From an uncultured Paracoccaceae bacterium (lineage in GTDB: Bacteria > Pseudomonadota > Alphaproteobacteria > Rhodobacterales > Rhodobacteraceae): a stretch of 64,000 nt of DNA. The stretch's first letter is position 1, and each line of letters starts with the position of its first letter. The notes under the pieces were generated by a model. That model saw only the letters and a list, made by a program, of their open reading frames with translations. It made no database searches and was not told the DNA's origin. Positions 4,056-25,458 of the stretch are shown piece by piece. Position numbers and translations under genes: made by a program. Location: the NCBI GenBank assembly GCA_947503965.1, contig CANNFU010000003.1, forward strand, positions 310,001 to 374,000, in the 5' to 3' direction.

Positions 4056-4502
4056 TTAGGTGATTTTCATCAAAAGCGTCATCAGCGTCTTCTTTTCGGC
4101 TTTGGTCAGCGGCTGCAGCGTTTCTTCCGAAATCCGCAGCCCATCGTTTATCAGGGTTTGCACGATAGACTGGCCCTTGGGGGTCAAGGAGATATCTGAT
4201 CGGCGCTTGTCGGTGGGATTGGCGCTGGAAATCACCAGCCCCTTTGCCTTGAGACGATCGACAACGCCCTTGACCGTTGCGACGTCCATCGCCGCCAGCC
4301 GGCCCAGATGGTTTTGCGACACACTGCCGGTCTCATACACGCGGATCAGGGTTGAGAATTGGGTTGGCGTCAAATCCTCGGAAATATTCTTTTGAAAGAT
4401 AACGGCATGGCGCTGGCTTGCGAGCCGCAGTAGGTACCCGACCTGCTGGCTCAACCTGTATCGCTGTTTTTGCTCTAGCATGTCTTCTGAAGGGCTGATC
4501 AT
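4056..4502 (-). CDS. MarR family transcriptional regulator
   Basis: A 148-residue protein with the usual MarR length and layout: an N-terminal dimerisation helix, a winged helix from about residue 45 to 115 (LGRLAAMDVATVKGVVDRLKA is the recognition region), and the wing motif DKRRSDISLTPKG. It lies 54 bases downstream of the two DUF1185 genes on the same strand and closes the catabolic gene series, so it is the natural local repressor. MarR proteins in aromatic or N-heterocycle gene clusters usually respond to a pathway substrate or intermediate. The effector here is unknown. The candidate operator at 11644-11661 is one possible target. Confidence 0.88.
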   Translation of the reverse strand: MISPSEDMLEQKQRYRLSQQVGYLLRLASQRHAVIFQKNISEDLTPTQFSTLIRVYETGSVSQNHLGRLAAMDVATVKGVVDRLKAKGLVISSANPTDKRRSDISLTPKGQSIVQTLINDGLRISEETLQPLTKAEKKTLMTLLMKIT

Positions 4503-4556
4503 GCCAGACCATACCGCTGTCGTTCCGGATTGAACAGGGCGTCTGTCGGTGGATGA

Positions 4557-5141
4557 CTATCGCAACCCGTCTTTGCCTTCGGCCTCTTCATGGGTCAGGC
4601 CGCCAACGCGCGGCAAGGGGCGTCCGCTATCTGTTACGGCGACGGCGACCATGATTTCATTGCGCCGAGGGGCGTCGTTCAGGCAGACTTCGATCCCGTC
4701 AAAATGACTACGCACATAGGCGGCATCTTTGTGGCCCAATGGCACATCCAGTACCTGACCGGGGCTGCCCATCTTTTTTGAGGAAGGCACAAGTGCGGCA
4801 CCTTTTTCGACCGCCTTGCGCAAGGGCGCCCCCAGTTTCGGATGCAGAATGGCGGCTGCATGTTCCAGCTCACCACTTTCGCCAACCATTGCGGATTTGC
4901 CATAACTTTCCGCGGCATCGCCTGAGATACCAAGCGCCTGCACACATTTTTCGCCCAGAAGCGCGCCAAGTTCCGCGCCAATATCCATTAACGCGCCAAG
5001 ATCCTCTTGGTAGGTGCCAGCAAAGGGGTTTTCGATCACAGCCACGGCAACGGCCTTGCGGGTTGGTGGTGAGATGGGTTTGCCCATCTCAAGATGGGTT
5101 TCTTCGACAGTTATTGCGATTTTTCTGATCTTCGCGCTCAT
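4557..5141 (-). CDS. DUF1185 (amino acid synthesis family) protein, paralogue 1
   Basis: A 194-residue protein of the family PF06684, named amino acid synthesis from old annotation although no reaction is established. Family hallmarks seen here are VIENPFAGTY near residue 35, SYGKSAMVGE, GELEHAAAILHP, LGHKDAAYVRSHFDGIEV and the C-terminal GKDGLR. A structure of a Bordetella member has been described as having a chorismate-mutase-like fold. That fold recalls, in my inference only, ring-opening amidohydrolases such as barbiturase. Its start codon overlaps the stop of the second paralogue by four bases, so the pair is translationally coupled and may form a hetero-oligomer. Context points to a hydrolytic or isomerising step after the molybdenum hydroxylase and reductase. 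Confidence 0.85.
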   Translation of the reverse strand: MSAKIRKIAITVEETHLEMGKPISPPTRKAVAVAVIENPFAGTYQEDLGALMDIGAELGALLGEKCVQALGISGDAAESYGKSAMVGESGELEHAAAILHPKLGAPLRKAVEKGAALVPSSKKMGSPGQVLDVPLGHKDAAYVRSHFDGIEVCLNDAPRRNEIMVAVAVTDSGRPLPRVGGLTHEEAEGKDGLR

Positions 5142-5719
5142 CTCAAACCATCCTTTCCGACAATGTCGCTGGCCTTCAGGCCACCTGCCCGATCATGGAT
5201 ACGGGCACCCGTGCTCATCACAAGGATCAGTGCCATCTCATCGGCGCGGGGTGCATCATTCAATCCAACCTCCATTGCGTCGAAATGGCTGCGGACGTAA
5301 GAGGCGTTGATATGTGTGATCGGCACATCCAGCCGCCCGCCAACACCTGCAACCTTCTTGGTCGATGGTACGATTGCGTTTGAGTTTTCCAACAGCTCGC
5401 GCATGGCATAGCCGCCGGGGGCATGCCACAGCGCGCCATGTTCCAGTTCACCGTCTTCGCCGATGATCGCGCCCTTGCCGTAACCTTCGACATGCGCGGC
5501 ACCACCCAACATCTCTACCAGCCGCCCAGCCATGGACAGGCCCAGCGGTTTGAGGTCTTCCATGAACCATTGGATGTCGGGTTCGTAACGGCCGGCAAAT
5601 GGGTTTTTGATCACCGCCATGCCTGCGGCACGTTTCAGGCTTTTGTCAGGGACCGGCCCTCTTTCATGGAAAATTTCTTCGAGTGAGAATGCGGTCTTTC
5701 GCACGACCAGATCAGACAT
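5138..5719 (-). CDS. DUF1185 (amino acid synthesis family) protein, paralogue 2
   Basis: A 193-residue paralogue of the downstream gene. It shares the order VIKNPFAGRY, EGYGKGAIIGE, GELEHGALWH, ITHINASYVRSHFDAMEV, LNDAPRADE and the C-terminal GKDGLR. The start is ATG at 5719 behind AAGGAG; a longer frame reaching 5872 lies inside the UPF0280 gene and is rejected. It overlaps the UPF0280 stop by eight bases, so the four genes from the reductase down are one translational series. The two copies differ through most of their length while keeping the same motifs. That suggests division of labour or two subunits rather than recent duplication. Confidence 0.85.
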   Translation of the reverse strand: MSDLVVRKTAFSLEEIFHERGPVPDKSLKRAAGMAVIKNPFAGRYEPDIQWFMEDLKPLGLSMAGRLVEMLGGAAHVEGYGKGAIIGEDGELEHGALWHAPGGYAMRELLENSNAIVPSTKKVAGVGGRLDVPITHINASYVRSHFDAMEVGLNDAPRADEMALILVMSTGARIHDRAGGLKASDIVGKDGLR

Positions 5720-6575
5720 AAAGCTGCTCCTTTTGTTGGAGCGAAAACATTGGCCCCTTGGTGATAGTAGAGTGACCCTGCAAAAACAGCGCAGCGCCAA
5801 GTATCCGATTTGCGTGCTGCCATCTTTCCGCCAGCGCCAGCCCGCCCGACAAAGCGCGCGCGCAATCGGCATGGGACAACCCTGCGCATCCGGTCACGAT
5901 CCTTTCAGCGCCCAGGTCGGATTGATCGTCAAGCTCGTGCGCGGCACAGCGGGTCACGGCAGGATGACCGGGCAGGTCAACGGCATTCGCAATCAGTGTC
6001 GCGGAAACGTCCGCCGATGCAGCCGTCTGCGCGAGCACGGTCACACTATCAGCGATCCCCATACTGAGGCTGCGGCCATGCCGCCCACTTGTCGCAATCC
6101 CGCCAATCCCATCCTCAGACTTGATTACGATCTGCCCCAACGGCTGGCCATCATGATGTCGCATGTCTGTTTTGAATGTCTCGCCTGGGCTTAGATGCAG
6201 CGCAATATCTCCGCCATTGTTCACATAGGCCCGGCGCAGAGTACCAGCCTTCAGTATGGCGTTCAAAACCTCGTCAGCGACAGCGCCCGCCACTGCCGCC
6301 ATCGGTGTCACATATCCCGAAAACCGCAGACAAGATGCAGCGTCATACATACGCCGCGCCACATCGCCGTCAGGTCGCCGTGATCCCTTTGCCAGCGGGC
6401 GGCGCAGGACATCCAACTCTTCCACCAGTTCGGTCAGGATTGTCGAAAACCTGTCAATCGCCGCATCAAAGGCCGCCTTACGGTTCCCTTCGGCATGGAT
6501 GATCAGATCAATGGGTCCGTGCTGCAGATGCAACCGCTGGCCGTTGTGCAACAAAGAGGCATGTGGTCCCGTCAT
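5712..6575 (-). CDS. UPF0280 family protein (ApbE-like fold)
   Basis: A 287-residue cytosolic protein of the uncharacterised UPF0280 family. Visible hallmarks are the N-terminal LHHGPIDLIIHAEG-like strand pair, then SGYVTPMAAVAGAVADEVL around residues 120-140, AYVNNGGDIALHL around 155-170, and a SMGIADSVTVLA segment. The family has been grouped with ApbE-like folds, the fold of FMN transferases, but no activity is known to me. It lies six bases after the 6-hydroxynicotinate reductase-like gene and overlaps the next gene. A role in loading or maturing the flavin of that reductase is a reasonable inference, not an established fact. I saw no clear ApbE-type flavinylation motif in the reductase. 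Confidence 0.85.
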   Translation of the reverse strand: MTGPHASLLHNGQRLHLQHGPIDLIIHAEGNRKAAFDAAIDRFSTILTELVEELDVLRRPLAKGSRRPDGDVARRMYDAASCLRFSGYVTPMAAVAGAVADEVLNAILKAGTLRRAYVNNGGDIALHLSPGETFKTDMRHHDGQPLGQIVIKSEDGIGGIATSGRHGRSLSMGIADSVTVLAQTAASADVSATLIANAVDLPGHPAVTRCAAHELDDQSDLGAERIVTGCAGLSHADCARALSGGLALAERWQHANRILGAALFLQGHSTITKGPMFSLQQKEQLYV

Positions 6576-6580
6576 GGTCG

Positions 6581-8065
6581 TTATTTCTTTGCCCAGCGGA
6601 AATTCTTATGCGCCATCGGATCATGCGCATTCTCGTTCTGATTGATGCGCCGCATCTGGCCACCTGCGATTTCTTCGACAGTCTGGATATGATCCATATG
6701 CCCACCCAAGGTGCGATAATCGCTCACCCGCAAGGTAAACTCGATCGGTGCGACCAAGGCGGGCGTCGGAACATAGCCGAAGGATTGCGTCGGCATGTCC
6801 AGTACATCAACCATGACAGTGATGCCGCCGCCGGGCCAGACATAGGCATCGGCGCCCCCGCAGGACACATGCGTCAGTGAATCCTTGACTGAACGGGTCA
6901 ACCGCACCGGGTTTTCCGTCACGCCCGCGCGCAGGCTGCCCCCGGCACCACCCATAAACAGCACCGAACATACCGAAGGTTCGCAATTCTCAGCGATCAG
7001 ATCGGCTGACGCCTTGAGTGGTGCGGAGATCGGTTCGGGTTGCGGAACAAGATCCGCGTCCAGTTCATAATAGGCGTATTGCTCACCCGTAGTTGACACC
7101 ATGAGCAGGCGCAGACCTTCCCATGCGACCTTTGGATTGAACGGGCCAAGGATGGTCAGCGGATCTTCGATATCCGTTCCGCCCCAACCGGTGCCGGGGT
7201 TGGCGACCTGAAAATACCGTCCGGGCGTTGACCGCCGGCCCAGCATCTTGATGCCCGTAGGCGGCACATCCAGTTGCTTGCCTGCTTCGTGTTCAGACAG
7301 GACGCCGGTGATATGGTCGTCAACCACGACAACCTCGTCGGCATGGTCGATCCATTGCATGGCAAACATACCAATCGCGGCAGAGCCGCAGCCAACACGC
7401 ATCAATTTTTCTTCGACACCATTCAAAATAGGGGCCTTGCCCGCCTGCACGACGACTTCTGCCTGGTGCTCAGCGTCGCCGACATGCAGTGTGACCGCTT
7501 CACGATTACACAACCGCAATAATGTATCGCAGGTCACGCGGCCCTCTTTCTTGCTGCCGCCTGTCAGATGCTCCACACCGCCCAGCGACAGCATTTTTGA
7601 GCCATATTCAGACGTCATCACATGGCCGATGGGTTCGCCATCGGCATAGACGACATCACGCTCGTGCCCGATATGGCGGTCAGTGTCGATTTTCACTTTC
7701 ACGCCGCAATAGCTGAAAATCCCCTCGGTCACGACCGTCACCATGTCCACGCCGTCAATGTCCTGACTGACGATAAAGGGGGCGGGCTTGTAGTCTGGAT
7801 AGGTTGTGCCCGCGCCGACCGCTGTGACGAAAGGGCGCTGGCCCTTGATGATATCGCCGTCCCAACCGTCATCGTCTGCCGCGTTTGGCATGAAAGGCAC
7901 CAGCTTTTGATCGCCGCTTTGGATGATTGTCAGCGGATCGACACGCACCAGAGCGCCCTGATGGTTTGCGTAGCGATCACAGGCCCCGGATTTACCTTCG
8001 GAAATATAGCACATGACCGGACAGGCATCGCAGCGGATCTTTTCCGGCTTTCCCTGATCTTTCAT
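6581..8065 (-). CDS. 6-hydroxynicotinate reductase-like iron-sulfur protein
   Basis: A 494-residue cytosolic protein. It starts with a cysteine cluster (CDACPVMC at residues 12-19, then GACDRY) suited to an iron-sulfur centre. It continues through a long conserved body with GLRLLMVSTTGE and a C-terminal part ending near DYRTLGGHMDHI. This matches my recollection of 6-hydroxynicotinate reductase (Hnr), which in Eubacterium barkeri reduces 6-hydroxynicotinate to the tetrahydro-6-oxo ring. It overlaps the molybdenum hydroxylase by four bases, which fits hydroxylation followed by ring reduction. The later enzymes of the E. barkeri route (enamidase, hydroxymethylglutarate dehydrogenase) are absent, so the true substrate may be another N-heterocycle. 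Family call fairly sure; substrate not. Confidence 0.8.
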   Translation of the reverse strand: MKDQGKPEKIRCDACPVMCYISEGKSGACDRYANHQGALVRVDPLTIIQSGDQKLVPFMPNAADDDGWDGDIIKGQRPFVTAVGAGTTYPDYKPAPFIVSQDIDGVDMVTVVTEGIFSYCGVKVKIDTDRHIGHERDVVYADGEPIGHVMTSEYGSKMLSLGGVEHLTGGSKKEGRVTCDTLLRLCNREAVTLHVGDAEHQAEVVVQAGKAPILNGVEEKLMRVGCGSAAIGMFAMQWIDHADEVVVVDDHITGVLSEHEAGKQLDVPPTGIKMLGRRSTPGRYFQVANPGTGWGGTDIEDPLTILGPFNPKVAWEGLRLLMVSTTGEQYAYYELDADLVPQPEPISAPLKASADLIAENCEPSVCSVLFMGGAGGSLRAGVTENPVRLTRSVKDSLTHVSCGGADAYVWPGGGITVMVDVLDMPTQSFGYVPTPALVAPIEFTLRVSDYRTLGGHMDHIQTVEEIAGGQMRRINQNENAHDPMAHKNFRWAKK

Positions 8066-10797
8066 CGCTGGGCCTTTCGAATTTCGGTTCTGACAAGCGA
8101 CGGCGTTGCAGGAACCCTTGTGATCCGAACACCGGTTGCCGCCTTGATGGCGTTCAGGATGGCTGGGGCTGTCGGGATCAGGACGTGTTCACCCAAGCCC
8201 TTTGCGCCATAGGGTCCATGGGCGTCCGGCTCTTCGATAATGATTGTCTCAATCGGGGGGATATCACCAATCGTGGGGATCAGATAGTCGTGCAGGTTTT
8301 CCGTGCGGCCCGGGATGTACTCTTCCATCAGGGCCATCCCCAGCCCTTGTGCGATACCGCCATGCACCTGGCCTTCAACCATCATCGGGTTGATGGCCTG
8401 CCCAACATCGTGGGCCGCCACAAACTTTATCGGTTTTACCGTCCCCATGGCAGTGTCCACATCGACGACAACCAGATGTGCCGCGTAACCGAATTGGGCA
8501 TAAGGTGCGCCTTGACCGTTTTTGTCCAACGGCCGCGTCGGCGGGTCGTATGTTTCCTCTGCCCGCAGGACCAGCCCTTCGTCGTCGCAAGGCAGTTTGG
8601 ACTGGTCTAAGCGGTGTTCGCCCGCCGCATCCGTTGCCACGATCACGCCCTGTTGGAAGGTCAATCTGGCGTCCCTCGCGACATTCATTTTTTCCACGAT
8701 AAGCTGTCGCAATGCCTCGCCCGACAAACGCGCTGCGTTCCCTGAAACGTAGGTCTGCCGCGATGCTGACGTCTTGCCCGCGTCAGGTGTCACGTCAGTA
8801 TCGGCGCCAATGCGCAGGATACTGTCAGCCGGAACGCCCAAGGCGGTTGCAAAAATCTGGGTGATAACCGTGTTCGCGCCTTGGCCGATATCCGTCGCGC
8901 CTTGGTGTAAAACGACACGCCCATCGGGTCGCACCCCCGATTTGATCGTCGACGGGTTCGGCAGTGACGTATTCCCGCACCCGTACCAGCCAGCGGCGAC
9001 GCCAACGCCGCGCTTGATCGTCGGACTGGTATCGTTGAATGCCTTTGCCGCAGCCGTTTCAGACTGCCAAGCCGGGCGCAGCGCCTTCAGGCAGGCAGTG
9101 ATCCCGACGCCCTGATCGAAAACCTGCCCGCAGACAGTCGGTACGCCGTTTTCAAGCGCATTGATGATGCGGAATTCCAGCGGATCGATGCCCAGCTTTT
9201 CCGCGAGTTCGTCGAAGAGGCTTTCTTGCGCGATGGCCGATTGAGGCACGCCAAAACCACGAAACGCACCGGCAGGCGGGTTGTGCGTATAAATGCCCTT
9301 GGATTCCGCCCGATAGTTGGAAATCGCGTAAGGCCCCGATGCGTGCACCGGCACACGGTTGGCCACGGTCGGGCCCCAGCTTGCGTAGGCACCGGTGTCA
9401 AATTCACCGGAAAAATCAAAACCGGTGATCCGACCTTCGGCATCTGCGCCGATTTTCAGCCGGATGTCGGATGGATGTCGCTTGGTCGTGCTTTGCATCG
9501 ATTCAGTGCGCGAATAGCAGATCCGCACCGGCTTGCCTGTCTTCAGCGCGCCAAGCGCAAGATAGGGCTGGACCGAAAGATCCAGCTTTGAGCCAAAGCC
9601 GCCGCCAACGGCGGTAGGAACGATCCGGATCTGCGATCTGTCGAGCCCCAGAATGATCTCAAGTCCCTCCAGGTCCATGACGGGTGCTTGTGTGCATGCA
9701 TGCACTTCGACCCGGCCATCCACGATCTGTGCGAACCCGGCCTCGGGCTCAATATAGCCATGTTCGACAAAGCCGCTGTTGAAATGCCCCTCGACCGTTT
9801 GTGATGCTGCCGACAGTCCTGCCTGCGCGTCACCGCATGTCACGAAACCACCGCACATGACGTTGCGGTCTCGCCCCTGATGCAACTGCGGTGCGGTATC
9901 CTTTTGTGCGTCATGAATGCATTGCGCGGCGGGCATTTCCGTCCACGTCACCGGGAAAGACTCGGGGTCGAAGGTTGCCATAAACTCCGGTGTTGCGACG
10001 ATGGCGGCAACAGCCTCACCGCGGAAGCGTGTCTCAGATTCCGCAAAAACAGGCTGATCCATAAATTGCGGAATGACGCCAAAGACATTGCGGCCTGCGA
10101 TATCATCCGCCGTCAAAACAGCCTCGACCCCTGTCCCATTCTTGAACGCATCCAGATCACCCAGCGTGAAAGAGGCGCGCGCAAAGGGTGAACGGACAAC
10201 AAATATTTCCAGACACCCGACCGGCGCGACATCGTCGCCAAACGCTTCGGTCCCGTCTACTTTGCATTTTCCATCCAGCCGCCGGATTGATGTGCCGACA
10301 CGGCCGTCGCCGTCATGCGCAATCGCTGGCGCGCCGACCACGGCATCGATGATTTTCCGGTAACCGGTGCAACGGCACAAAACGCCGCCCAAGGCATCTT
10401 TGACATCATCCTCAGTGGGTGCATCATTGCTTCGCAGCAACGCAATGGCAGACACCATCATGCCGGGGGTGCAAATGCCACATTGCGCAGCGCCATGGTT
10501 CTGGAAGCTCTCGGCGAGCTGTTTCGTTTTTGCGTCTGTCCGGTACAACCCGGCCAGCGTTTCCACGCTGCGCCCTTCGACCTGGTGGGCGGCGGTCAGA
10601 CAGGCGCAAACCGGCTTGCCATCAAGCAGGACAGTGCAGGCGCCGCAATCGCCGGCATCACAGCCGATCTTGACGTCGCGCGCCCCAAGGTTTTCGCGCA
10701 GGAGCGCCGACAGGCGCTGTCCGGGCGTCACATCCGCACGTGCGGGCTGTGCATTCAGTTCAAACGCAATCTGTTTTGAGAAAAAGGGCTTGTTCAT
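8062..10797 (-). CDS. Molybdenum hydroxylase, fused [2Fe-2S] and molybdopterin domains
   Basis: A 911-residue xanthine dehydrogenase family enzyme. Residues 1-85 form a plant-type ferredoxin domain with CDAGDCGAC. Residues 90-160 form the helical [2Fe-2S] domain with CGICTPGM and CRCTG. The rest is the molybdopterin unit with PAGAFRGFG, a GQGANTV loop and the catalytic glutamate in GAKGLGE. The layout and length are those of the Desulfovibrio aldehyde oxidoreductase type, which lacks FAD. Here, however, a separate FAD subunit gene overlaps the start by four bases, giving an unusual two-subunit enzyme. Expected chemistry is water-derived hydroxylation of an N-heteroaromatic ring next to nitrogen, with electrons leaving via the two clusters and FAD. 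Context with the Hnr-like reductase favours a nicotinate-like substrate. Confidence 0.93.
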   Translation of the reverse strand: MNKPFFSKQIAFELNAQPARADVTPGQRLSALLRENLGARDVKIGCDAGDCGACTVLLDGKPVCACLTAAHQVEGRSVETLAGLYRTDAKTKQLAESFQNHGAAQCGICTPGMMVSAIALLRSNDAPTEDDVKDALGGVLCRCTGYRKIIDAVVGAPAIAHDGDGRVGTSIRRLDGKCKVDGTEAFGDDVAPVGCLEIFVVRSPFARASFTLGDLDAFKNGTGVEAVLTADDIAGRNVFGVIPQFMDQPVFAESETRFRGEAVAAIVATPEFMATFDPESFPVTWTEMPAAQCIHDAQKDTAPQLHQGRDRNVMCGGFVTCGDAQAGLSAASQTVEGHFNSGFVEHGYIEPEAGFAQIVDGRVEVHACTQAPVMDLEGLEIILGLDRSQIRIVPTAVGGGFGSKLDLSVQPYLALGALKTGKPVRICYSRTESMQSTTKRHPSDIRLKIGADAEGRITGFDFSGEFDTGAYASWGPTVANRVPVHASGPYAISNYRAESKGIYTHNPPAGAFRGFGVPQSAIAQESLFDELAEKLGIDPLEFRIINALENGVPTVCGQVFDQGVGITACLKALRPAWQSETAAAKAFNDTSPTIKRGVGVAAGWYGCGNTSLPNPSTIKSGVRPDGRVVLHQGATDIGQGANTVITQIFATALGVPADSILRIGADTDVTPDAGKTSASRQTYVSGNAARLSGEALRQLIVEKMNVARDARLTFQQGVIVATDAAGEHRLDQSKLPCDDEGLVLRAEETYDPPTRPLDKNGQGAPYAQFGYAAHLVVVDVDTAMGTVKPIKFVAAHDVGQAINPMMVEGQVHGGIAQGLGMALMEEYIPGRTENLHDYLIPTIGDIPPIETIIIEEPDAHGPYGAKGLGEHVLIPTAPAILNAIKAATGVRITRVPATPSLVRTEIRKAQR

Positions 10798-11624
10798 CTC
10801 GACGCTGCCTGCATGATTGCGCGCTTACACTGCTCTTGTACCACATCGTAGCGGTACGCGGCTGTGCCCCGCACATCATCGATGGGTGCCAGCGGTGCGA
10901 AGTATTCAGGCTTCATTTCGATGCGGTCAGGCGTTTGTCTGATCAGACTTGCTTCAAGCGCTGGCAGACGTTGTGCAACAGCTGAACAGGCACCGACAGC
11001 GACGCGGGCGTCAGCGATGCGGCCATCCTTGGCCATGGCTAGATTTACCGCTGTCATGCAGATCGAAATCACAAGGTACCGGCGACTGCCGAGCTTTTCG
11101 AACGCGGACGTCATGTGGCGCGATGGCTTTGGTATTTGGATACCGACAACCATTTCGTCGGATTGCAGGGCGGTTGCCCGGACCCCTTGGATAAACGCAG
11201 CCAGCGGAAGCAGTCTGGACCCGCGTGCAAGGCTTGCGATTTCAACCGATGCATCAAGGGCGAGCAACGGCGGCACGCCATCTGCCGCGGGCGACGCATT
11301 GCAGATGTTACCGGCCAAAGTGGCCGCATTCTGGATCTGGACACTTCCCACCTCGCGAGACGCGGCCTTAAGGGCATCAAATGCCGGGCAAAGATCGGCA
11401 TTGATGATGTCCGTCCAGGTCACGGCACTGCCAATATGTATCGTGCTTTCGGTCGTGGTAATTCTGTTCAGACCGTCAATCCGGGTGACATCAAGATAAA
11501 AGTCGGGTTGATGGCCGGGTTGTGCAGATGGGTATACATCAGTGCCGCCTGCAATGATCTTGCCCGATCCCTGCGCAAGGGCTTCCAGGGCGTCATGCAT
11601 ATTCTTGGGGCTGATGTAACTCAC
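10794..11624 (-). CDS. FAD-binding subunit of the molybdenum hydroxylase
   Basis: A 276-residue CoxM/XdhB-type flavoprotein. FAD contacts are seen in IIAGGTDVYP near residue 25 and in TLAGNICNASPAADGVPPLLAL near residue 110, followed by the usual C-terminal domain with KLGSRRYLVIS. The chosen start is GTG at 11624, with GAGG six bases before it; the longer frame would run through the operator and -10 element. It overlaps the fused iron-sulfur/molybdopterin gene by four bases and should pass electrons from the clusters to NAD or another acceptor. It heads the operon running down to the MarR gene, behind a strong promoter at 11658-11687. Confidence 0.9.
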   Translation of the reverse strand: MSYISPKNMHDALEALAQGSGKIIAGGTDVYPSAQPGHQPDFYLDVTRIDGLNRITTTESTIHIGSAVTWTDIINADLCPAFDALKAASREVGSVQIQNAATLAGNICNASPAADGVPPLLALDASVEIASLARGSRLLPLAAFIQGVRATALQSDEMVVGIQIPKPSRHMTSAFEKLGSRRYLVISICMTAVNLAMAKDGRIADARVAVGACSAVAQRLPALEASLIRQTPDRIEMKPEYFAPLAPIDDVRGTAAYRYDVVQEQCKRAIMQAASR

Positions 11625-11643
11625 AGAGCGCCTCAACTCATTT

Positions 11644-11687
11644 TCATTTGCATACAAATGATATTGGTGTGGGGGCGATCCTGTCAA
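11644..11687 (-). promoter_or_regulatory. Sigma70-type promoter with overlapping palindromic operator
   Basis: Reading the minus strand, a perfect TTGACA (11682-11687) is followed 18 bases later by TATCAT (11658-11663). An inverted repeat with seven-base arms, TCATTTG and CAAATGA around a four-base spacer (11644-11661), overlaps the -10 element and lies just before the ribosome site of the FAD subunit gene. This is the classic position for a repressor. ATTTGCAT half-sites also occur upstream of the MarR-like gene at 25458. Confidence 0.65.
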
Positions 11688-11767
11688 CAAGGATTCAGTC
11701 CATCAAGCAATGATCCGATGACGCTGCCGTTCAATTTCCTAGCGCTGTTATACCCAGCAGAATTGTA

Positions 11768-16939: not shown

Positions 16940-16962
16940 AGTGTATGTCCCCGTTATACGAA

Positions 16963-18012
16963 TTATTGGCCCCACGTTTTTCGCAGGACCCTCAGCCAAT
17001 TCCCGTGCGTGATCTTGGCCATAAGGTCATCATCAACACCAAGGGAACGCAGCGCAGCAAGCAGTCTGGGCAGGCCTTCACAGTCCCCGATCTTATCCGG
17101 TACAAGTGCGCCGTCGAAATCGGACCCCATACCAAGCCGCTCTTCACCCAGGCTGCGGATGAGATGGTCGAAGTGTCTGAGCATGATGTCAAGCTCAAAC
17201 TCGGAATCCATGCGACCATCGGGTCGTAGGAAGGCACTGGCGAAATTAATGCCAACCATTCCATCGCTTTCGCGGATCATGGCCAATTGACGATCGGTCA
17301 GATTGCGCGCATGCGGGCAAACCGCCCACGCATTCGAATGGGTCGCAACAAGCGGCGCGTCTGTGATCCGGGCAACATCCTCAAACCCTTGTGCATTGAG
17401 ATGGGACAGATCAATCATGATGTTCAGGTGGTTACACGCGCGGATCAACGCTTTGCCATCTTCCGTCAGCCCCGGCCCGATATCGGGATCAGATGGATAG
17501 CGGAAGGGCACGCCATGCCCCCAGATGGTATCACGGCTCCAGACCGGACCCAGCGACCTTAGCCCACGCGAATGCCAGTCGTGCAGTTTTTCAAAGTCGC
17601 GGTCTATCGCCTCGGCCCCTTCAATATGAATGACGGCGGCCATCTCTTCGGCGGGCAATGCCGCTTCGATCTCTTGCACGTTGCGACAGACGCGGATCGC
17701 GCCGGCAGCGGCAAGATCGTCTACCGCCGCGAACCCTTTTTCTGTCCAGTCAGTGGCATCGGTCTCTGACACCTGATCAGGCAACGGAATGTCATAGGGC
17801 GGGTTGCGCATCAGATCATGATGGTCTGAGGACCTGACGGAATTGGGCACGAAGATCGCAAACATGCCGCCACCGAACCCACCTTTTCGCGCGCGCGGTT
17901 TGTCAATGTGACCATCGGGCAGACCGGAAGCTACCGCATCGGCGGTAACATCGTCTTGCAAAAGGCGCAGGATCAAATCGTTGTGGCCATCAAAGATAGG
18001 AAAATCAGTCAT
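16963..18012 (-). CDS. Membrane dipeptidase (peptidase family M19)
   Basis: A 349-residue zinc hydrolase of the renal dipeptidase family. Metal-binding landmarks are DGHNDL near the N-terminus, the bridging Glu in VIHIEGAEAID, and His residues in IDLSHLN and ATHSNAWAVCPHARN. GMGSDFDGA lies near the C-terminus. Despite the family name I see no signal peptide or anchor, so this copy is probably cytosolic, as usual in proteobacteria. The ATG at 18012 gives the standard N-terminus; a longer frame to 18246 is not family-like. It heads the peptide ABC operon and would cleave dipeptides or beta-lactam-like amides brought in by it. Confidence 0.92.
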   Translation of the reverse strand: MTDFPIFDGHNDLILRLLQDDVTADAVASGLPDGHIDKPRARKGGFGGGMFAIFVPNSVRSSDHHDLMRNPPYDIPLPDQVSETDATDWTEKGFAAVDDLAAAGAIRVCRNVQEIEAALPAEEMAAVIHIEGAEAIDRDFEKLHDWHSRGLRSLGPVWSRDTIWGHGVPFRYPSDPDIGPGLTEDGKALIRACNHLNIMIDLSHLNAQGFEDVARITDAPLVATHSNAWAVCPHARNLTDRQLAMIRESDGMVGINFASAFLRPDGRMDSEFELDIMLRHFDHLIRSLGEERLGMGSDFDGALVPDKIGDCEGLPRLLAALRSLGVDDDLMAKITHGNWLRVLRKTWGQ

Positions 18013-18337
18013 ATTGCGTCCAGTAATTGAGTGTCGCCAAAAATGACCGCGTTCGGTCCGGTCACTGTTCGACATTGTTTGAAATGCGAACTGATCACAA
18101 TCGGCTTTCGCACAAATGTCCGACCACATCATACGGGCCTCCGCAGAGCGGCTATCCCGTGTGAGCGCCGCCACAATCATGGCAGGCAAGATGAATGGCT
18201 GGGGCAGCAACTGTTTCTGGACTGAAGGCATTTGATGAATGCCCAAGATGTCCCGCCGACCAGACGGTCGGCCGGTATTTCAAGTTATGCCGCGGCGGCA
18301 AGTATCGGCCTTAGCCCCGGTCGGTCAGCTTTTGATG
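18013..18337. other. Intergenic region before the dipeptidase operon
   Basis: These 325 bases lie between the stop of the hydantoinase and the dipeptidase start, both on the minus strand. They should hold the dipeptidase operon promoter. A short inverted repeat, CCGACC with GGTCGG near 18256-18271, has no following T-run and is only a weak terminator candidate. I saw no convincing small gene. Confidence 0.4.
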
Positions 18338-21300
18338 TCAATCAGCACCTGATCCAAAGCCACCCCCACCAGGCGTCTTCATGACAAACACGTCACCGGC
18401 TTGCATGTCCCTGCGGTCATTTCCATCCAAACGCTCGATCGAGCCGTCTTTACGACAGACCGAATTCTCTCCGGGGCGGCCGGGTTCGCCACCGTTCACG
18501 CCGAAGGCTTGCGTTTTGCGATGGGACGACAACACCGTCACCGTCATCGGTGACAGGAATTCAAGCGCGCGTTCGATGCCGTTACCACCGTGCGTCGCGC
18601 CCCGCCCACCCGAACCGTGCCGGATCGCAAAGCGGTGTACGCGCACCGGAAACCGTGTTTCAAGAACTTCGGGGTCGGTCATGCGGGTATTGGTCATGTG
18701 GCTATGCACCGCAGAACAGCCGTCAAAACCCGGGCCAGCGCCTGTGCCACCACAGATGGTTTCGTAGTTTTGCAAGGTGTCATTGCCATAAACGAAGTTG
18801 TTCATCGTACCCTGGCTACCGGCAATCACGCCAAGCGCACCATATAGCGCATCCGCGATGCTTTGGCTGACTTCGGTGTTGCCCGAGATGACCGCAGCAG
18901 GGTAGGTCGGGTTGATGAAACTTCCCTCGGGCGCGATGATGTTGATGGGCTTCAGGCAGCCTTCGTTCATGGGAATGTCTGTGCCAACTAGCGTGCGGAA
19001 GACATAAAGCACGACAGCATGGCAGATAGCCAAGGGTGCGTTGTAGTTCAGATCGTCCTGTCTGCTTGTCCCTGTGAAATCGACCGTTGCGCTGCGGTCG
19101 TCCTTATTGACAGAGATTGCGACCTTAATCTGTGCACCACTGTCAAGCGGATAGGTGAATTGGCTGTCCTCCAACACGTCGATGACACGCCGGACGGATT
19201 CTTCGGCATTCGCCTGCACGTGACGCATATAGGATTGCACCACATCGGCCCCGAATTGATCCATTGCTTTTTGCAGTTCGATTGCACCTGTCGCATTGGC
19301 CGCAATCTGGGCCGTCAGGTCGGTCATGTTGTGGTCAATGTTGCGGCAAGGGTAAGGGCCTGATGCCAAAAGCGCGCGCGCTTCAGCTTCACGCAGGTGT
19401 CCGTCTGCGACGAGTTTGAAGTTCCTGATGAGGATACCCTCTTCGTCGATATGTCGGCTGTCAGGCGGGGCAGAGCCGGGGGTCTTGCCGCCAATGTCGG
19501 CGTGATGTCCGCGCGATGCGACAAGACATTCGATCCCTTCAGCGCTTTCGTCAAAAACCGGCGTGACCACGGTGACATCAGGCAGATGGGTGCCACCATT
19601 GAACGGATCGTTCATCATGAAAACATCGCCCGGACGGATCGTTCCAGCATTTTCGCGCAGGATCGATTTCACGCTCGCGCTCATGGAGCCAAGGTGCACC
19701 GGCACGTGGGGCGCGTTGGCGACCAGATCGCCCGTAGGATCAAAGATTGCACAAGAGAAATCCAACCGCTCGCGGATATTCACGGATGCTGCGGTTTTGG
19801 CCAGCGTTGCGCCCATTTGTTCAGCGATGGACATGAACAGGTTGTTGAACACCTCAAGCATGATCGGATCGACCGAGGTGCCGATCGCCTCGGCTCGGGC
19901 CAGCGGGATGATACGGCGCAGGATAAGCGCGCCGCCATCAATGCATGTCGCAGCCCACCCGTGTTCCACGACAGTTGTCCCCGTCGGTTCATTGATGACG
20001 GCGGGGCCTTGAACCGTTGCACCCATGCCCATTTTCGTCCGGTTGTGTGTCGGCACTGTCTGCGAGCATCCCTCCGACCACATTTCTACGGTGCCATGCT
20101 GGCTGCCTTGTGCTTTTGCATTCGGCAGGCTTGCTGTCGCGCCGGATGCGCCAATCGCCTCGACTGAGATCATCTCGGCGATGATCTCGTCGCCTTCGGG
20201 GCGGAAACCAAATGCTGTTTCATGGGCGTTGCGAAATGCCTCGACCATGTCTGTCGGTGATGCGAGCGCGACAGGCAATGTGGTCTGCGATGTGGCCATG
20301 CGCAGATAGACCTTTTCGCGCAGGCTGATGTTCTCGGCGGTAATGCCTTGGTTCTGGACTTCTTTCTCGGCCTCTTTGATCAGCGCCGAAGCGGCATCAT
20401 CAATGGCATTTATGTCCGTAACCGGCACAAGAAGCTGTTTTTCCCGCATCGCGACAATATCAGCCAGACCCATGCCCAGCGCGGACAGCACACCTGCAAA
20501 TGGGTGCAGATAAACAGATGTCATCCCAAGCGCATCCGCCACAAGGCAGGCGTGCTGACCACCCGCACCGCCAAAACAGTTCAGCGTATAGCGCGTCACG
20601 TCATAGCCACGTGCGATGCTGATTTCCTTGATCGCGTTTGCCATATTGTCGACCGCGATCCGCAAGAAGCCTTCAGCCAATGTCTCGACCGACATCGGGT
20701 TTTCGCCGGTCTGGTCGGCGATCTGCTGCGCGAGCTTTGTGAACAGCGCGCGGGGTGTTGCCACATCAAGTGGCTGGTCACTGTCCGGCCCGAAAACATG
20801 GGGAAAGTTTTCAGGCTGCAGTTTGCCAAGGACGGCGTTGCAATCTGTCACCGTGAGGGGACCGCCACGACGATAACAGGCTGGACCGGGATCGGCGCCA
20901 GCGCTTTCAGGGCCGACTTGCAACCGACCGTCGCGGAACGACAGGATCGACCCGCCGCCAGCCGCGACGGTATGAATATTCATCATTGGCGCCCGCATCC
21001 GCACGCCCGCAACCTCGGTTTCAAAACTGCGCTCGTACTCGCCTGCGTAGTGGCACACATCGGTAGAGGTTCCACCCATGTCGAACCCGATCAGTCTGTC
21101 AAAACCGTCCTGTGTCGCAGTCTGAACCATGCCGACCACACCACCTGCCGGACCTGACAGGATCGCGTCTCGTCCATGAAAAAGGTCAGCATCCGTCAGC
21201 CCGCCATTCGACTGCATGAACATCAGCTGGCCAACGGCATCGGGGCCAAGCGCATCGCGCACCTGATTGACATAGCGTTTCAGGATTGGCGTCAGATAGG

Positions 21301-21946
21301 CGTCTGCCACTGTTGTGTCCCCGCGCGAGACAAGTTTGATCAGTGAACTGACATCGTGGCTAAGCGAGATTTGCTGGAACCCTTGCTGGTGCGCCATCTG
21401 TCCCAGCTTCTGTTCATGTTCCGGATTGCGATAACTGTGAAGCAGCGCAATGGCGATGGACCGGTAGCCTTTGCCGTAAGCGCGGCAAAGTGCTTCGCGT
21501 GCTTTGCTCAGGTCCAGCGGTGTGATCACGTTGCCCTGCGCGTCCAGTCGTTCATCCACCTCAACCACGTCCGAGTACAGCAGATCGGGCAGTTGAATAT
21601 GCAGTGCAAAAAGGTCGGGCCGGTTTTGATAGCCGATTCGAAGAAGGTCCTTGAACCCGCGGGTTATGAACAGGATCGTGTTTTCGCCCTTGCGTTCCAA
21701 AAGCGCGTTAGTTGCAACCGTTGTGCCCATTTTGATAGCGCGGATCGCATTTTGGGGGATTGGATCGCTTTGCTTCAGACCCAGCATTTCACAGATGCCT
21801 TGCACGGCGGCATCTTTGTAAGACTCTGGTTTTTCTGAAAGAATCTTGTGTGTGATCAGTGATCCATCAGGTTTGCGTGCGACAATATCGGTAAAGGTGC
21901 CGCCCCGATCAATCCAGAAGTCCCATTTCGTATCTGTGCGCGCCAT
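18338..21946 (-). CDS. Fused HyuA-HyuB hydantoinase / 5-oxoprolinase
   Basis: A 1202-residue cytosolic fusion. Residues 1 to about 700 are the HyuA (ATP-binding) half with [10 protein letters not shown] at the front and [11 protein letters not shown] near residue 290. From about residue 720 the HyuB half starts ([20 protein letters not shown]) and continues through [15 protein letters not shown] and a C-terminal GGGGFG. This length and order match eukaryotic 5-oxoprolinase and bacterial fused forms. The reaction class is ATP-dependent opening of a five-membered lactam or hydantoin. The ATG at 21946 was chosen because it gives the standard N-terminus. The gene is divergent from the TRAP transporter, with a palindrome in between, and fits as a late ring-opening step of the island. 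Confidence 0.93.
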
Positions 21947-21992
21947 TTTTTTGAGTCCCATGAATAAAGCTATTGCTTTGCTTGCAAAACGC

Positions 21993-22005
21993 TGACAAAT
22001 TGTCA
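21993..22005. promoter_or_regulatory. Palindromic operator between hydantoinase and TRAP genes
   Basis: TGACAAATTGTCA is a perfect inverted repeat with one central base, in the 113-base divergent region. On the minus strand it contains TTGACA, which could be the -35 element of the hydantoinase promoter. The nine-base GACAATTTG within it recurs at 25470-25478 in front of the second MarR-like gene. Confidence 0.5.
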
Positions 22006-22059
22006 ACGTAGTAATTGGGACCGCAGAGTGCCAAGAAAAGACCAACAGAGGAGCAAATC

Positions 22060-23025
22060 ATGAAACACGTCATATTGGCGGCGACCGTCGCGAGCGGTCT
22101 TTCCACGGCAGCCCTTGCCGAAACATGGGACATGCCCACACCTTATGGTGATGCAACATTCCATACACAGAATATCACACAATTTGCAGAAGAGGTGGCA
22201 GCCGCAACGGATGGAGCTCTGGAAATCACGGTGCATTCCGGCGGTTCGCTGTTTCCGCATGGTGAAATCCGCAATGTCGTCCGCTCGGGTCAGGTACCTA
22301 TCGGGGAATTCTTTCTGTCACGTCTGGTGAATGATGATGCGGCTTTTGGTATCGACAGCCAGCCTTTTGTGGCGACCAGCTATGAAGATGCCGCACGCCT
22401 CTGGGATGCGCAGAAACCGGTTGTGACCGCGCTTTTGGCAGAGCAAGGCCTGATGCCGCTGTTTTCGGTTCCGTGGCCTGCGCAGGGTCTTTACACCAAT
22501 GGTGAGATTGCAACAGTTGCGGACCTGTCAGGGCTGCGTTTCCGCGCCTACAACGCGGCATTGGAAGAGTTCGCGGCACTTGCAGGTGCTGCCCCGGTTC
22601 AGGTCGAGGCCCCCGATATTCCACAGGCATTTGCCACCGGCCAGGTTGAGGCGATGGTGACCTCGCCCTCCACTGGCGCAAACTCGACCGCGTGGGATTT
22701 TGTGACCCATTACACCCCTATCAACGCATGGGTACCCAAGAACATCGTTGTGGTGAACGAACGGGCTTTCCGCAGACTGCCCGACGATGTGCAAGCGGCC
22801 ATTCTGGATGCAGCCGCCGTTGCCGAAACACGTGGTTGGGACCTGTCCGCCGCAGAAGCTGACGCCAAAACCGCGATCATGGCCGAGAACGGCATGATCA
22901 TCGTGGAGCCAAGCGCCGAACTGACCGCCGGCTTGCAAGATATTGGTGCCCAGATGTTGAGCAACTGGAAAGCAAGCGCATCGGATGCGGCAATGTCGAT
23001 CCTGACATCGTATCAAGGGCAGTAA
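22060..23025 (+). CDS. TRAP transporter, periplasmic binding protein (DctP type)
   Basis: A 321-residue secreted protein with a signal peptide ending at ALAETWDM. The body shows the DctP landmarks: an N-terminal HTQNITQFAEEV helix, SGGSLFPHGEI, a central LSGLRFRAYN with the conserved carboxylate-binding arginine, and a NIVVVNERAF segment. The ATG at 22060 is preceded by GAGGAG at a good distance. Such proteins usually carry organic acids through an arginine-carboxylate salt bridge, so the ligand is probably a carboxylate, consistent with a heteroaromatic acid or a ring-opened product. First gene of a three-gene operon. Confidence 0.93.
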   Translation: MKHVILAATVASGLSTAALAETWDMPTPYGDATFHTQNITQFAEEVAAATDGALEITVHSGGSLFPHGEIRNVVRSGQVPIGEFFLSRLVNDDAAFGIDSQPFVATSYEDAARLWDAQKPVVTALLAEQGLMPLFSVPWPAQGLYTNGEIATVADLSGLRFRAYNAALEEFAALAGAAPVQVEAPDIPQAFATGQVEAMVTSPSTGANSTAWDFVTHYTPINAWVPKNIVVVNERAFRRLPDDVQAAILDAAAVAETRGWDLSAAEADAKTAIMAENGMIIVEPSAELTAGLQDIGAQMLSNWKASASDAAMSILTSYQGQ

Positions 23026-23118
23026 CGCGCGCGACCGAAACTGTCCTAATCTGCCAAGCTGGGCCCGGTGCTGGCTTCTTTCGCCCATGCACCGGGTTTT
23101 ATTCTGAAAGGGTTCTTG

Positions 23119-23643
23119 ATGCGGTACTTTCTTGATCGGATCTACATGACAGCGGCCTGGACGTCGGCCTTTACGATCCTGGCCATTGCAATCCTTATCA
23201 GTGCGCAGATTTTCCTGAACTTCGCCACAAGGGTCTTTGGTCTGCCGCTGCCATCGACCATTCCGTCCTATGCGGATTTTTCAGGGTTCATGTTGGCGGC
23301 GGCGACATTTCTGGCGATGCCTTACACGTTTCGCAGTGGGGGGCATATCAAGGTATCGCTTGTCACCGCACGCCTGCCACGCAAGGCGCGATTGTGGGCC
23401 GAAATCATCTCTTTATGCGGCGCGGCGTTCCTGACCAGCTTTGCCGTTTACTACATCTGGGTCCTAGTCGCGGAAAGCATCCATTTCAACGATCTGTCCA
23501 CCGGCACGGTCCCGATCCCGCTTTGGATACCGCAATCGGTTATGGGCATCGGCATGAGCCTGCTATGCGTCGCGGTGATAGACAGTCTGGTCCAGACGAT
23601 TGCGCGCGGCGAACCTGTTATCACCGCGTCAGAGGAGGTCTGA
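23119..23643 (+). CDS. TRAP transporter, small permease (DctQ type)
   Basis: A 174-residue inner-membrane protein with four predicted helices (near residues 10-32, 47-65, 90-112 and 135-155) and the RSGGHIKV segment typical of DctQ proteins between helices two and three. It lies 93 bases after the binding protein and ends one base before the large permease start. The ATG at 23119 is chosen over 23068 because it gives a family-like N-terminus. Confidence 0.9.
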   Translation: MRYFLDRIYMTAAWTSAFTILAIAILISAQIFLNFATRVFGLPLPSTIPSYADFSGFMLAAATFLAMPYTFRSGGHIKVSLVTARLPRKARLWAEIISLCGAAFLTSFAVYYIWVLVAESIHFNDLSTGTVPIPLWIPQSVMGIGMSLLCVAVIDSLVQTIARGEPVITASEEV

Positions 23644-23644
23644 G

Positions 23645-24946
23645 ATGTCTGATCCTGTGGTCGGTCTGATCCTTCTTGCGCTGTTGTTCGTTTTTCTTGC
23701 CGGGGGACTTTGGATCGCGCTGTCGCTCTCGGCTGTTGCGGCCATCGCACTGGCGTTCTTTTCGAACTCGTCTGTGGGGCTGAACCTTGCGGTGACGTTC
23801 TGGGGGCATAGCCATTCGTGGTCTTTGACCGCGCTGCCGCTGTTTATTCTGATGGGTGAAATACTGCTCAGATCGCGATTGAGCCGGGACATGTTCAATG
23901 GCCTTGCCCCGTGGCTGGGTGGTTTGCCGGGACGGTTGTTGCATGTGAACGTATTGGGCTGCGCGATTTTTGCGGCTGTCTCTGGCTCATCCGCCGCGAC
24001 GGCGGCAACCATCGGCAAGATGTCGATCCCCGAACTGAAATCGCGCGGCTATCCAGAGGGGTTGATCCTTGGAACCTTGGCCGGTTCTGCAACGCTTGGC
24101 CTGCTGATCCCGCCATCGATCATTCTGATCGTCTATGGTGTGGCAACCGAACAATCCATTGCGCGCCTTTTCGTTGCCGGGCTGATCCCGGGCGCCATGC
24201 TCGTACTGCTTTTTGGTGGTTACGTTGCTGTGCGGGCATGGATGGACCCGGAGCTAATTCCGACAGAGACTGTCAAACTGACGCTCAGGGAAAAGCTGTG
24301 GGAAGCACGCGGGTTGATCCCGGTGGCATTGCTGATCACCGGGGTGATCGGCGCAATTTATACCGGGATCGCATCACCGACGGATGCAGCCGCATTGGGC
24401 GTTCTGCTATCAATCCTTCTGGCTGTCCTGTCTGGCAGTTTCGGCAAGCAGGACTTTCTGGACGCTTTGCTTTCGGCGGCGCGAACATCCTGCATGATTG
24501 CATTCATCCTGCTTGGCGCCGCTTTTCTGGCGGTCGCGATGGGGTTCACCGGCTTGCCCCGCAACCTGGCCGCCTGGATCGGAGAGATGGGCCTGTCACC
24601 CTATGTGCTGCTGGCCGTCCTGACGGTGTTCTTTATTGTGCTGGGGCTGTTTCTTGATGGGATCTCGGTCGTGGTTTTAACCACATCGATCATCATGCCA
24701 ATGGTACTGGCAGTCGGGATCGATCCGATCTGGTTCGGTATCTACCTTGTTCTTGTTGTCGAGATGAGCCAGATCACACCGCCGGTCGGGTTCAACCTTT
24801 TCGTCATTCAGGGGTTGACGGGCATCGATATCCTGCGCATCGCGAAGGCGGCGTTGCCATTCTTCTTTCTGCTTTTGCTGGCCGTGGTACTGATCACGCT
24901 GTTCCCCGGCATCGTCACCTATCTGCCATCCGCAATGGGTCGCTAA
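23645..24946 (+). CDS. TRAP transporter, large permease (DctM type)
   Basis: A 433-residue membrane protein with about twelve helices. Typical DctM features are LPLFILMGEILLRS, the conserved AAVSGSSAATAATIGKM loop, LIPPSIILIVYG and TPPVGFNLFVIQG. Transport is driven by a sodium or proton gradient, with the DctP and DctQ partners directly upstream. Its end overlaps the end of the convergent MarR-like gene by four bases. Confidence 0.93.
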   Translation: MSDPVVGLILLALLFVFLAGGLWIALSLSAVAAIALAFFSNSSVGLNLAVTFWGHSHSWSLTALPLFILMGEILLRSRLSRDMFNGLAPWLGGLPGRLLHVNVLGCAIFAAVSGSSAATAATIGKMSIPELKSRGYPEGLILGTLAGSATLGLLIPPSIILIVYGVATEQSIARLFVAGLIPGAMLVLLFGGYVAVRAWMDPELIPTETVKLTLREKLWEARGLIPVALLITGVIGAIYTGIASPTDAAALGVLLSILLAVLSGSFGKQDFLDALLSAARTSCMIAFILLGAAFLAVAMGFTGLPRNLAAWIGEMGLSPYVLLAVLTVFFIVLGLFLDGISVVVLTTSIIMPMVLAVGIDPIWFGIYLVLVVEMSQITPPVGFNLFVIQGLTGIDILRIAKAALPFFFLLLLAVVLITLFPGIVTYLPSAMGR

Positions 24947-25458
24947 AGCGATGATGCCGCCCGGCTGGCCTGATCATATTGCCCTGACAACGCCCGCAGA
25001 CTGGCCGCGATGCTGCTAAGCTCATCGCCGGACATGTCCATGCGTCCCAACCCGTCGATCAGACACCGTTCCCTGACTTCACGATAGCTTTGGCATAGGG
25101 CGGCACCGCTGGTCGAGGTGCGGTAGAACACCTCTTTGCCCCGCTTCTCGGACTCGATCAGACCCGCCTTCAGCAGCTTGCGCAATGCGTAGTTGACGGT
25201 GTGTGTGTCATCGATATTCAGCACGAAACACACGTCGCTCAGCCGTTTATCACGCCCGCGGTGGTTCACATTGTGCAGCACCAATATCTCTAGCGGGCTC
25301 ATCTCGGTATGGCCGGCTGCTGCCATGCATTTGACCATCCAGCGCGAAAAGGCGTTGAACGCAATGATAAGGCCAAATTCGAATTCGGACGCTTCCCAGC
25401 CTTCGCCATCGGCAAGATGACGGGACGATACGATTTTACGTTTTGGCGAGGTGTTCAT
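24943..25458 (-). CDS. MarR-like winged-helix regulator (COG5631 type)
   Basis: A 171-residue predicted transcription factor. The winged helix spans about residues 50-115, with SPLEILVLHNVNHRGRDKR followed by NIDDTHTVNYALRKLLKAGLI as recognition helix and EKRGKEVFYRTS as wing. The long N-terminal helix (FGLIIAFNAFSRWMVKCM) would form the dimer. This form matches the predicted MarR-family group that often accompanies catabolic operons. It is convergent with the TRAP operon. Its own promoter region contains GACAATTTG and two ATTTGCAT half-sites that also occur at the two other island promoters, so it is a good candidate for the island's regulator. Confidence 0.85.
   Translation of the reverse strand: MNTSPKRKIVSSRHLADGEGWEASEFEFGLIIAFNAFSRWMVKCMAAAGHTEMSPLEILVLHNVNHRGRDKRLSDVCFVLNIDDTHTVNYALRKLLKAGLIESEKRGKEVFYRTSTSGAALCQSYREVRERCLIDGLGRMDMSGDELSSIAASLRALSGQYDQASRAASSL

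Follow-up and report, generated by a model that had tools for sequence, protein, structure and literature searches.

Gene content and conservation of the Hnr core

The DNA analyzed here is a 64,000-base stretch from an uncultured Paracoccaceae bacterium (the window; bases 310001-374000 of contig CANNFU010000003.1, hereafter C3; host genome 4.65 Mb, 99.97% complete). Its subject is a compact minus-strand gene cluster at window positions 4056-11690, built around a 6-hydroxynicotinate reductase-like protein (Hnr, 6581..8065). In the direction of reading, the cluster begins with the flavin adenine dinucleotide (FAD) subunit of a molybdenum hydroxylase (10794..11690; Pfam FAD_binding_5, E 4e-42), for which relatives suggest a start near 11624. 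There follow a fused [2Fe-2S] and Mo-cofactor subunit (8062..10797; Pfam Fer2_2, MoCoBD_1 and MoCoBD_2), Hnr itself, and a UPF0280 protein of the ApbE superfamily (5712..6575; NF003322, 353.8 bits against a cut-off of 290). Two DUF1185 proteins (AA_synth, PF06684) come next: DUF1185a (5138..5719 within an open frame to 5872; Pfam E 1.7e-66, PDB 3byq E 2e-58), whose start was placed at 5719 by family conservation, and DUF1185b (4557..5141; Pfam E 4.3e-71). The two copies score 238.4 and 223.4 bits against a Pfam cut-off of 27. A MarR-type regulator (4056..4502; Pfam MarR, E 6.7e-12), for which tblastn places relatives at the corresponding position in many of the named loci described below, ends the run. 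Junctions within the core are tight: there is a 4-base overlap at FAD/Mo, at Mo/Hnr and between the two DUF1185 genes, a 5-base gap between Hnr and UPF0280, and, with the start at 5719, an 8-base overlap of UPF0280 and DUF1185a.

The name Hnr comes from a relative so named by NCBI, the 97% identical protein of Sulfitobacter (now Parasulfitobacter) algicola, which is the closest named one, and from plasmid-borne clusters named likewise. Hnr had no Pfam match, its best hit in a PDB search reached only E 0.6, and a profile compared with PDB gave no match. The Mo subunit carries xanthine-oxidase-family domains (Pfam). A search in 120 genomes of the phylum returned eight Hnr matches, all from the same class.

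Conserved clustering was assessed in 32 named loci encoding an Hnr relative, fetched at up to 21.5 kb each and compared by tblastn. Hnr is present in 32/32, UPF0280 and the Mo subunit in 31/32 each, the FAD subunit in 29/32 and at least one DUF1185 in 30/32, in the gene order of the window; UPF0280 is absent only from L033, whose stretch stops within Hnr. This clustering is well beyond chance. In a survey of 385 alphaproteobacterial genomes, Hnr was matched in 69 (68 strongly) and UPF0280, with fragments at contig ends scored as present, in 74 (68 strongly), and the two strong sets are the same 68 genomes. In 67 of these 68 the distance between Hnr and UPF0280 is at most 600 bases; G231 has them on different contigs. 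DUF1185 was matched in 82 genomes (81 over the cut-off) and is present in 59 of the 68 Hnr genomes. Left out were Hnr of G216 (E 8.8e-4), DUF1185 of G056 (E 5.4e-4) and UPF0280 of G143, G109, G311, G323, G099 and G121 (E 4.6e-7 to 6.5e-4). The associations in the survey have Fisher values of 2e-77 and 3e-17, with relatedness among the genomes ignored. An earlier note on this DNA, made from the sequence alone, had proposed looking for co-occurrence of Hnr, UPF0280 and DUF1185 in other genomes, and the outcome is strongly positive.

Hnr also occurs in 26 plasmid records of PLSDB, 12 of them from Sulfitobacter (H1-H12, 92-180 kb), and the cluster is probably mobile. A Rieske oxygenase gene of the VanA_C type was seen near the core in six loci (e.g., L008:15878-16990).

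Enamidase block and the proposed pathway

The earlier note regarded enamidase and the subsequent enzymes of reductive nicotinate breakdown as missing, which for enamidase is true of the window only. An amidohydrolase of about 390 residues lies inside the fetched stretch in 16 of the 32 Hnr loci, and the copy of Litoreibacter roseus (L003) matches the Eubacterium barkeri enamidase structure 2vun at E 1.8e-107. In the genome of the window's organism the corresponding gene is found at C3:274476-275633, on the same contig, 40,951 bases from Hnr and outside the window. It is 88% identical to the copy of another Hnr locus (L006) and aligns with 2vun over residues 1-382 (E 7.6e-106), so the idea that the enamidase is absent was rejected.

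Next to the enamidase lie a family III coenzyme A (CoA)-transferase, whose best NCBIfam model is succinate--glutarate CoA-transferase, and a protein resembling ferredoxin-NADP reductase (133 bits against a cut-off of 390), along with genes that group with permeases, ATPases and a binding protein of the Liv type. In 11 loci the Liv-type genes are adjoined by a protein some 470 residues long that has no Pfam match (L065:6444-7868, corresponding to C3:281444-282868).

Plasmid P3 of Sulfitobacter mediterraneus holds a like set within about 17 kb: a Liv ATP-binding cassette (ABC) importer, FAD and Mo subunits, Hnr, UPF0280, two "amino acid synthesis" proteins, MarR, the amidohydrolase and ferredoxin-NADP reductase. 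A Comamonadaceae plasmid likewise carries Hnr, UPF0280, two DUF1185, an ABC importer, ferredoxin-NADP reductase and a 68% identical enamidase together, with a Mo enzyme of another type. The window's organism thus has the cluster split into two pieces on one contig.

These data lead to the proposal that the core is the first part of an Azorhizobium-type reductive nicotinate pathway, and that the genes following it in the window belong to unrelated units. We put the probability of this reading at roughly three in four, a figure that covers the identity of the pathway and the separateness of the units and leaves aside the roles of UPF0280 and DUF1185. The predicted order of reactions, read from the gene set, would start with hydroxylation of nicotinate to 6-hydroxynicotinate by the Mo/Fe-S/FAD enzyme, followed by reduction to 1,4,5,6-tetrahydro-6-oxonicotinate by Hnr. 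The enamidase would then open the ring to give 2-formylglutarate, decarboxylation and oxidation would yield glutarate, and the CoA-transferase beside the enamidase would activate it. In Azorhizobium, decarboxylation is reportedly followed by glutarate formation and CoA transfer from succinyl-CoA; the nicotinate fermentation of E. barkeri continues to pyruvate and propionate.

The earlier note had presented the island as a candidate for an undescribed pathway. A described one is at hand, and the core already bears its names in databases. According to the parts of PMC3511419 available, a nicotinate cluster of Azorhizobium caulinodans and Bradyrhizobiaceae supports a route via tetrahydro-oxonicotinate to glutarate; excerpts of PMC9304392 describe hydrolytic opening of the tetrahydro-oxonicotinate ring to 2-formylglutarate in both E. 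barkeri and A. caulinodans, with enamidase as the ring opener in E. barkeri. The A. caulinodans/Bradyrhizobiaceae system was compared at the level of the pathway, as given in those parts of PMC3511419, and the window's genome differs in having its enamidase block 41 kb from Hnr. With E. barkeri it shares the reductive route and an enamidase homologous end to end, whereas the CoA-transferase beside that enamidase is of the glutarate type.

Several points weigh against this assignment. The identity of Hnr comes by homology to a named relative; the Mo subunit scores below every NCBIfam equivalog cut-off; the CoA-transferase stays below its own (524 against 750 bits); and no dedicated decarboxylase or semialdehyde dehydrogenase was recognized. 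An improbable alternative is that the core applies this chemistry to a different N-heteroaromatic acid and owes its nicotinate name to homology only. The sub-threshold Mo subunit and the homology-based substrate are what such a view would build on, but the E. barkeri-type enamidase in the genome, the glutarate-type CoA-transferase next to it and a sister cluster in which genes annotated nicA and nicB adjoin hnr all argue for nicotinate.

Units adjoining the core

The minus-strand run that ends with the core MarR gene (4056) begins at 22045, and the 21 kb that the earlier note treated as a single degradation island comprise three units rather than one pathway. All genes named in that note exist and their order was given correctly, as open reading frames and Pfam/NCBIfam matches confirm. 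Next to the core (unit A) lies unit B, with a peptide-type ABC importer (SBP5, two permeases and two ATPases; 11768..16999, minus strand, Pfam) and an M19 dipeptidase (16963..18246, minus strand, Pfam). Unit C consists of a fused HyuA-HyuB protein (18338..22045, minus strand; Pfam Hydantoinase_A/B) and, beyond it, a plus-strand tripartite ATP-independent periplasmic (TRAP) importer DctP, DctQ and DctM (22015..24946, Pfam) and a minus-strand MarR-type regulator, MarR2 (24943..25458; Pfam HTH_27, E 1.3e-19).

Neither the M19 nor the SBP5 and TRAP genes of the window had a match in the 32 Hnr loci, and HyuAB matches occur in 3/32, at 29-33% identity. Counting the window's own genome, the fused HyuAB is present in 14 of 41 relatives. 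Eight HyuAB neighborhoods (12-19 kb each) were compared: HyuAB stands together with DctP, DctQ, DctM and MarR2 in three (G386 and G388, of the same genus, and G007), a DctM of 39-40% identity adjoins it in two, and it is alone in three. The Hnr core and M19 are found in none of the eight, a 28% DppF match in one. In G007, Hnr lies on a different contig from the HyuAB/TRAP/MarR2 set. HyuAB/TRAP was thus rejected as a part of the pathway, as it recurs as a separate unit without the Hnr core. M19 is present in 4 of the 41 relatives, the own genome counted, and in the other three, all of the same genus, an SBP5 relative adjoins it; the M19/peptide ABC pair was rejected on this ground. A point on the other side comes from L. 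roseus, in which the core has upstream another peptide-type ABC importer (27-44% identical) and also an M81 protein, and this importer lends some residual plausibility to a connection between unit B and the core.

The window's HyuAB also falls outside the HyuA clade that accompanies Hnr elsewhere, defined by at least 57% identity to HyuA of locus L082. The two are about 30% identical (29-33%), and the best match of the L082 HyuA in the window's genome has E 1.8e-102, with none at E 1e-200. Both share Hydantoinase_A/B domains with HyuA/HyuB, caprolactamase and acetophenone carboxylase, and both remain well below the NCBIfam caprolactamase cut-offs.

It is accordingly very improbable that the 21 kb form a single island devoted to some undescribed heterocycle or lactam, with HyuAB, UPF0280 or DUF1185 as the opener. 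Physical proximity and the run of genes on one strand would fit such an island, as would the fact that a HyuA clade does accompany Hnr in 36 of 68 genomes. It is contradicted by the enamidase in the genome, by the position of the window's HyuAB outside that clade and its recurrence with TRAP and MarR2 away from Hnr, and by the lack of M19, TRAP and SBP5 in all fetched Hnr loci. The sequence of hydroxylation, ring reduction and lactam opening suggested in the earlier note thus remains a fair order for the core, but the hydantoinase, dipeptidase and importers of the window appear to belong to other units. With these genes set apart and an enamidase in the genome, no uncharacterized family is needed for ring opening here; one part of the earlier idea holds in a sister cluster type, which is devoid of enamidase and in which a different HyuA clade, often close to Hnr, probably opens the ring.

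Two proposed alternative ring openers

Enamidase was sought at E 1e-60 only, which gave 36 genomes, and copies of at most 41% identity were classed as enamidase-like. Enamidase of at least 66% identity is present in 31 of the 385 genomes, 30 of which have Hnr. Among the 68 Hnr genomes, enamidase occurs in 30, the HyuA clade in 36 and both in none; the cut of 57% was picked after inspecting the match list, which was capped at a point below the clade, and scoring was limited to 17 candidates in each genome. Two genomes have neither (G226 and G313, completeness 70 and 86%). The distance to Hnr is 10 kb or less for HyuA in 21/36 and for enamidase in 17/30, with many of the others on different contigs. 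The reference HyuA of the clade is encoded, with HyuB, at L082:4155-7920.

The Hyu type is illustrated by Neorhizobium sp. NCHU2750, whose cluster contains nicA, nicB, liv genes, hnr, UPF0280, two DUF1185, hyuA and hyuB, with no enamidase in 31 kb. To judge from these distributions, a HyuAB other than the window's own probably replaces enamidase in the sister cluster type and is a candidate ATP-dependent ring opener, and we infer one pathway with two interchangeable ring openers. In a control set of 121 genomes, HyuA of at least 58% identity occurs in 13, 12 of them Hnr-bearing. The thirteenth, the Hnr-free G114, together with three Hnr-free genomes that carry HyuA at 52%, speaks against a strict tie to Hnr. 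In the literature searched, there was no hydroxynicotinate paper with hydantoinase and no description of HyuAB for this substrate.

The strict exclusivity of the two types could also mean that enamidase-type and Hyu-type clusters serve different substrates and are not two openers of one ring, and the DUF1185 content, which is unlike between the types, fits this as well. In a quickly made tree with 100 Hnr rows, three of them long and doubtful (L134, L131 and L081) and 16 without label, the enamidase and Hyu labels change eight times each, at least four of the changes being forced by starred branches; shuffled labels need a mean of 28. Switches also occur among close Hnr relatives (G104 versus G210, G300 and G378). 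Two deep Hnr lineages corresponding to the two cluster types were rejected in view of these eight changes. Repeated switching, along with the nicA and nicB annotation of the Neorhizobium cluster, argues against different substrates, which we consider an unlikely, if still serious, explanation.

DUF1185 and the ring-opening step

DUF1185 proteins were assigned to subtype a or b by their best match to the window's two copies. Many of the fetched loci are short, so that a score of none may reflect a truncated stretch. Of 31 enamidase-type loci, the window counted, 18 have both subtypes, seven b only, two a only and four none; of the 36 Hyu-type loci, 17 have only a, 18 have neither and one has both (G104, b at 59%). 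Neorhizobium, also of the Hyu type, has both subtypes, with b at 62%. DUF1185b therefore mostly goes with enamidase, G104 and Neorhizobium being the two exceptions, whereas DUF1185a would have some role in both Hnr cluster types. In six genomes (G001, G007, G065, G185, G279 and G357) DUF1185 lies 67-355 bases from the enamidase gene. DUF1185 as a replacement of enamidase was rejected, as it is found in 31/31 enamidase genomes.

An enamidase-like gene (38-41% identity) likewise has a DUF1185 gene 74-119 bases away in G060, G202 and G306 and at second sites in G300, G210, G378 and G381; three of these genomes are without any Hnr, a second, unassigned use of the pair.

As the next step is reportedly loss of CO2 from 2-formylglutarate, and as TgnF is linked to a semialdehyde step, DUF1185b may work on the enamidase product or alongside it, for instance as a decarboxylase or tautomerase of 2-formylglutarate. 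This is a speculative guess, more apt to fail than to hold, and it is countered by Hyu-type genomes that can do without b yet should form the same product. In the portions of PMC7913881 available, the DUF1185 proteins TgnF (trigonelline) and HcdD (7-hydroxycoumarin) are likened to each other; TgnF is described as stimulating the oxidation of succinic semialdehyde by TgnE, and for HcdD no effect was demonstrable. As far as those portions go, these proteins share with the window's DUF1185 the family and the setting in catabolic operons, and differ in acting in pathways with other substrates.

UPF0280 as a possible maturation factor of Hnr

Among solved structures, a profile of 26 UPF0280 sequences matches a single one, 2o34 (E 7.2e-12). 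When 78 UPF0280 sequences were compared as a profile with nine of ApbE, the probability was 94% (E 1.1e-7, 95 columns), against below 1% in control comparisons with Hnr and Mo profiles and 69% in a first, untrimmed comparison. The GGD, ATSG and AD..AT motifs align between the families and are invariant in the 26 UPF0280 sequences; the nine ApbE rows were kept out of 20 loci by the patterns ATS and AD..AT, and the agreement at these motifs is for that reason partly chosen. Some database entries already label the UPF0280 family as ApbE superfamily.

The Hnr of E. barkeri is said to contain covalently bound flavin and Fe-S clusters. Given this and the relatedness to ApbE, UPF0280 may flavinylate Hnr. 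The most parsimonious view is that UPF0280 serves to mature Hnr, most probably as a divergent flavin transferase of the ApbE kind, although we would give it somewhat less than an even chance. Two observations go against it. Relative to the ApbE flavin transferases (PF02424), with which the profile similarity extends over 95 columns, UPF0280 lacks the H..DP.TG loop, which we take to be catalytic in ApbE and opposite which the profile alignment has a gap; and none of 100 Hnr sequences contains what is presumably the canonical flavinylation target motif. About as likely, at close to even odds, is that UPF0280 assists Hnr as a non-catalytic partner or as a cofactor chaperone: the same strict linkage in 68/68 genomes would be expected of such a protein, and loss of the loop and the missing target motif would fit as well, but the ApbE core of GGD, ATSG and AD..AT, invariant and aligned with ApbE, speaks against it. 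The literature searched held no paper for UPF0280 and none for 6-hydroxynicotinate with "covalently bound flavin".

Implications

As its pathway is known, the island itself is ordinary, and the interest lies in the testable predictions it yields. The bacterial subfamily of UPF0280 is strictly tied to one enzyme across the 385 alphaproteobacterial genomes, the second DUF1185 copy mostly follows enamidase, and about half of the Hnr genomes examined apparently have HyuAB in place of enamidase. It is tempting to combine these observations into a scheme in which UPF0280 is a dedicated divergent flavin transferase activating Hnr, and the ring is opened interchangeably by the metal-dependent enamidase, with DUF1185b as its partner, or by an ATP-dependent HyuAB lactamase. 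The scheme as a whole is tentative and on balance doubtful. If true, UPF0280, DUF1185b and a HyuAB clade would gain functions at once, and a role in the breakdown of vitamin B3 would fall to genes of such clusters that at present go by "amino acid synthesis", "N-methylhydantoinase" or "ApbE".

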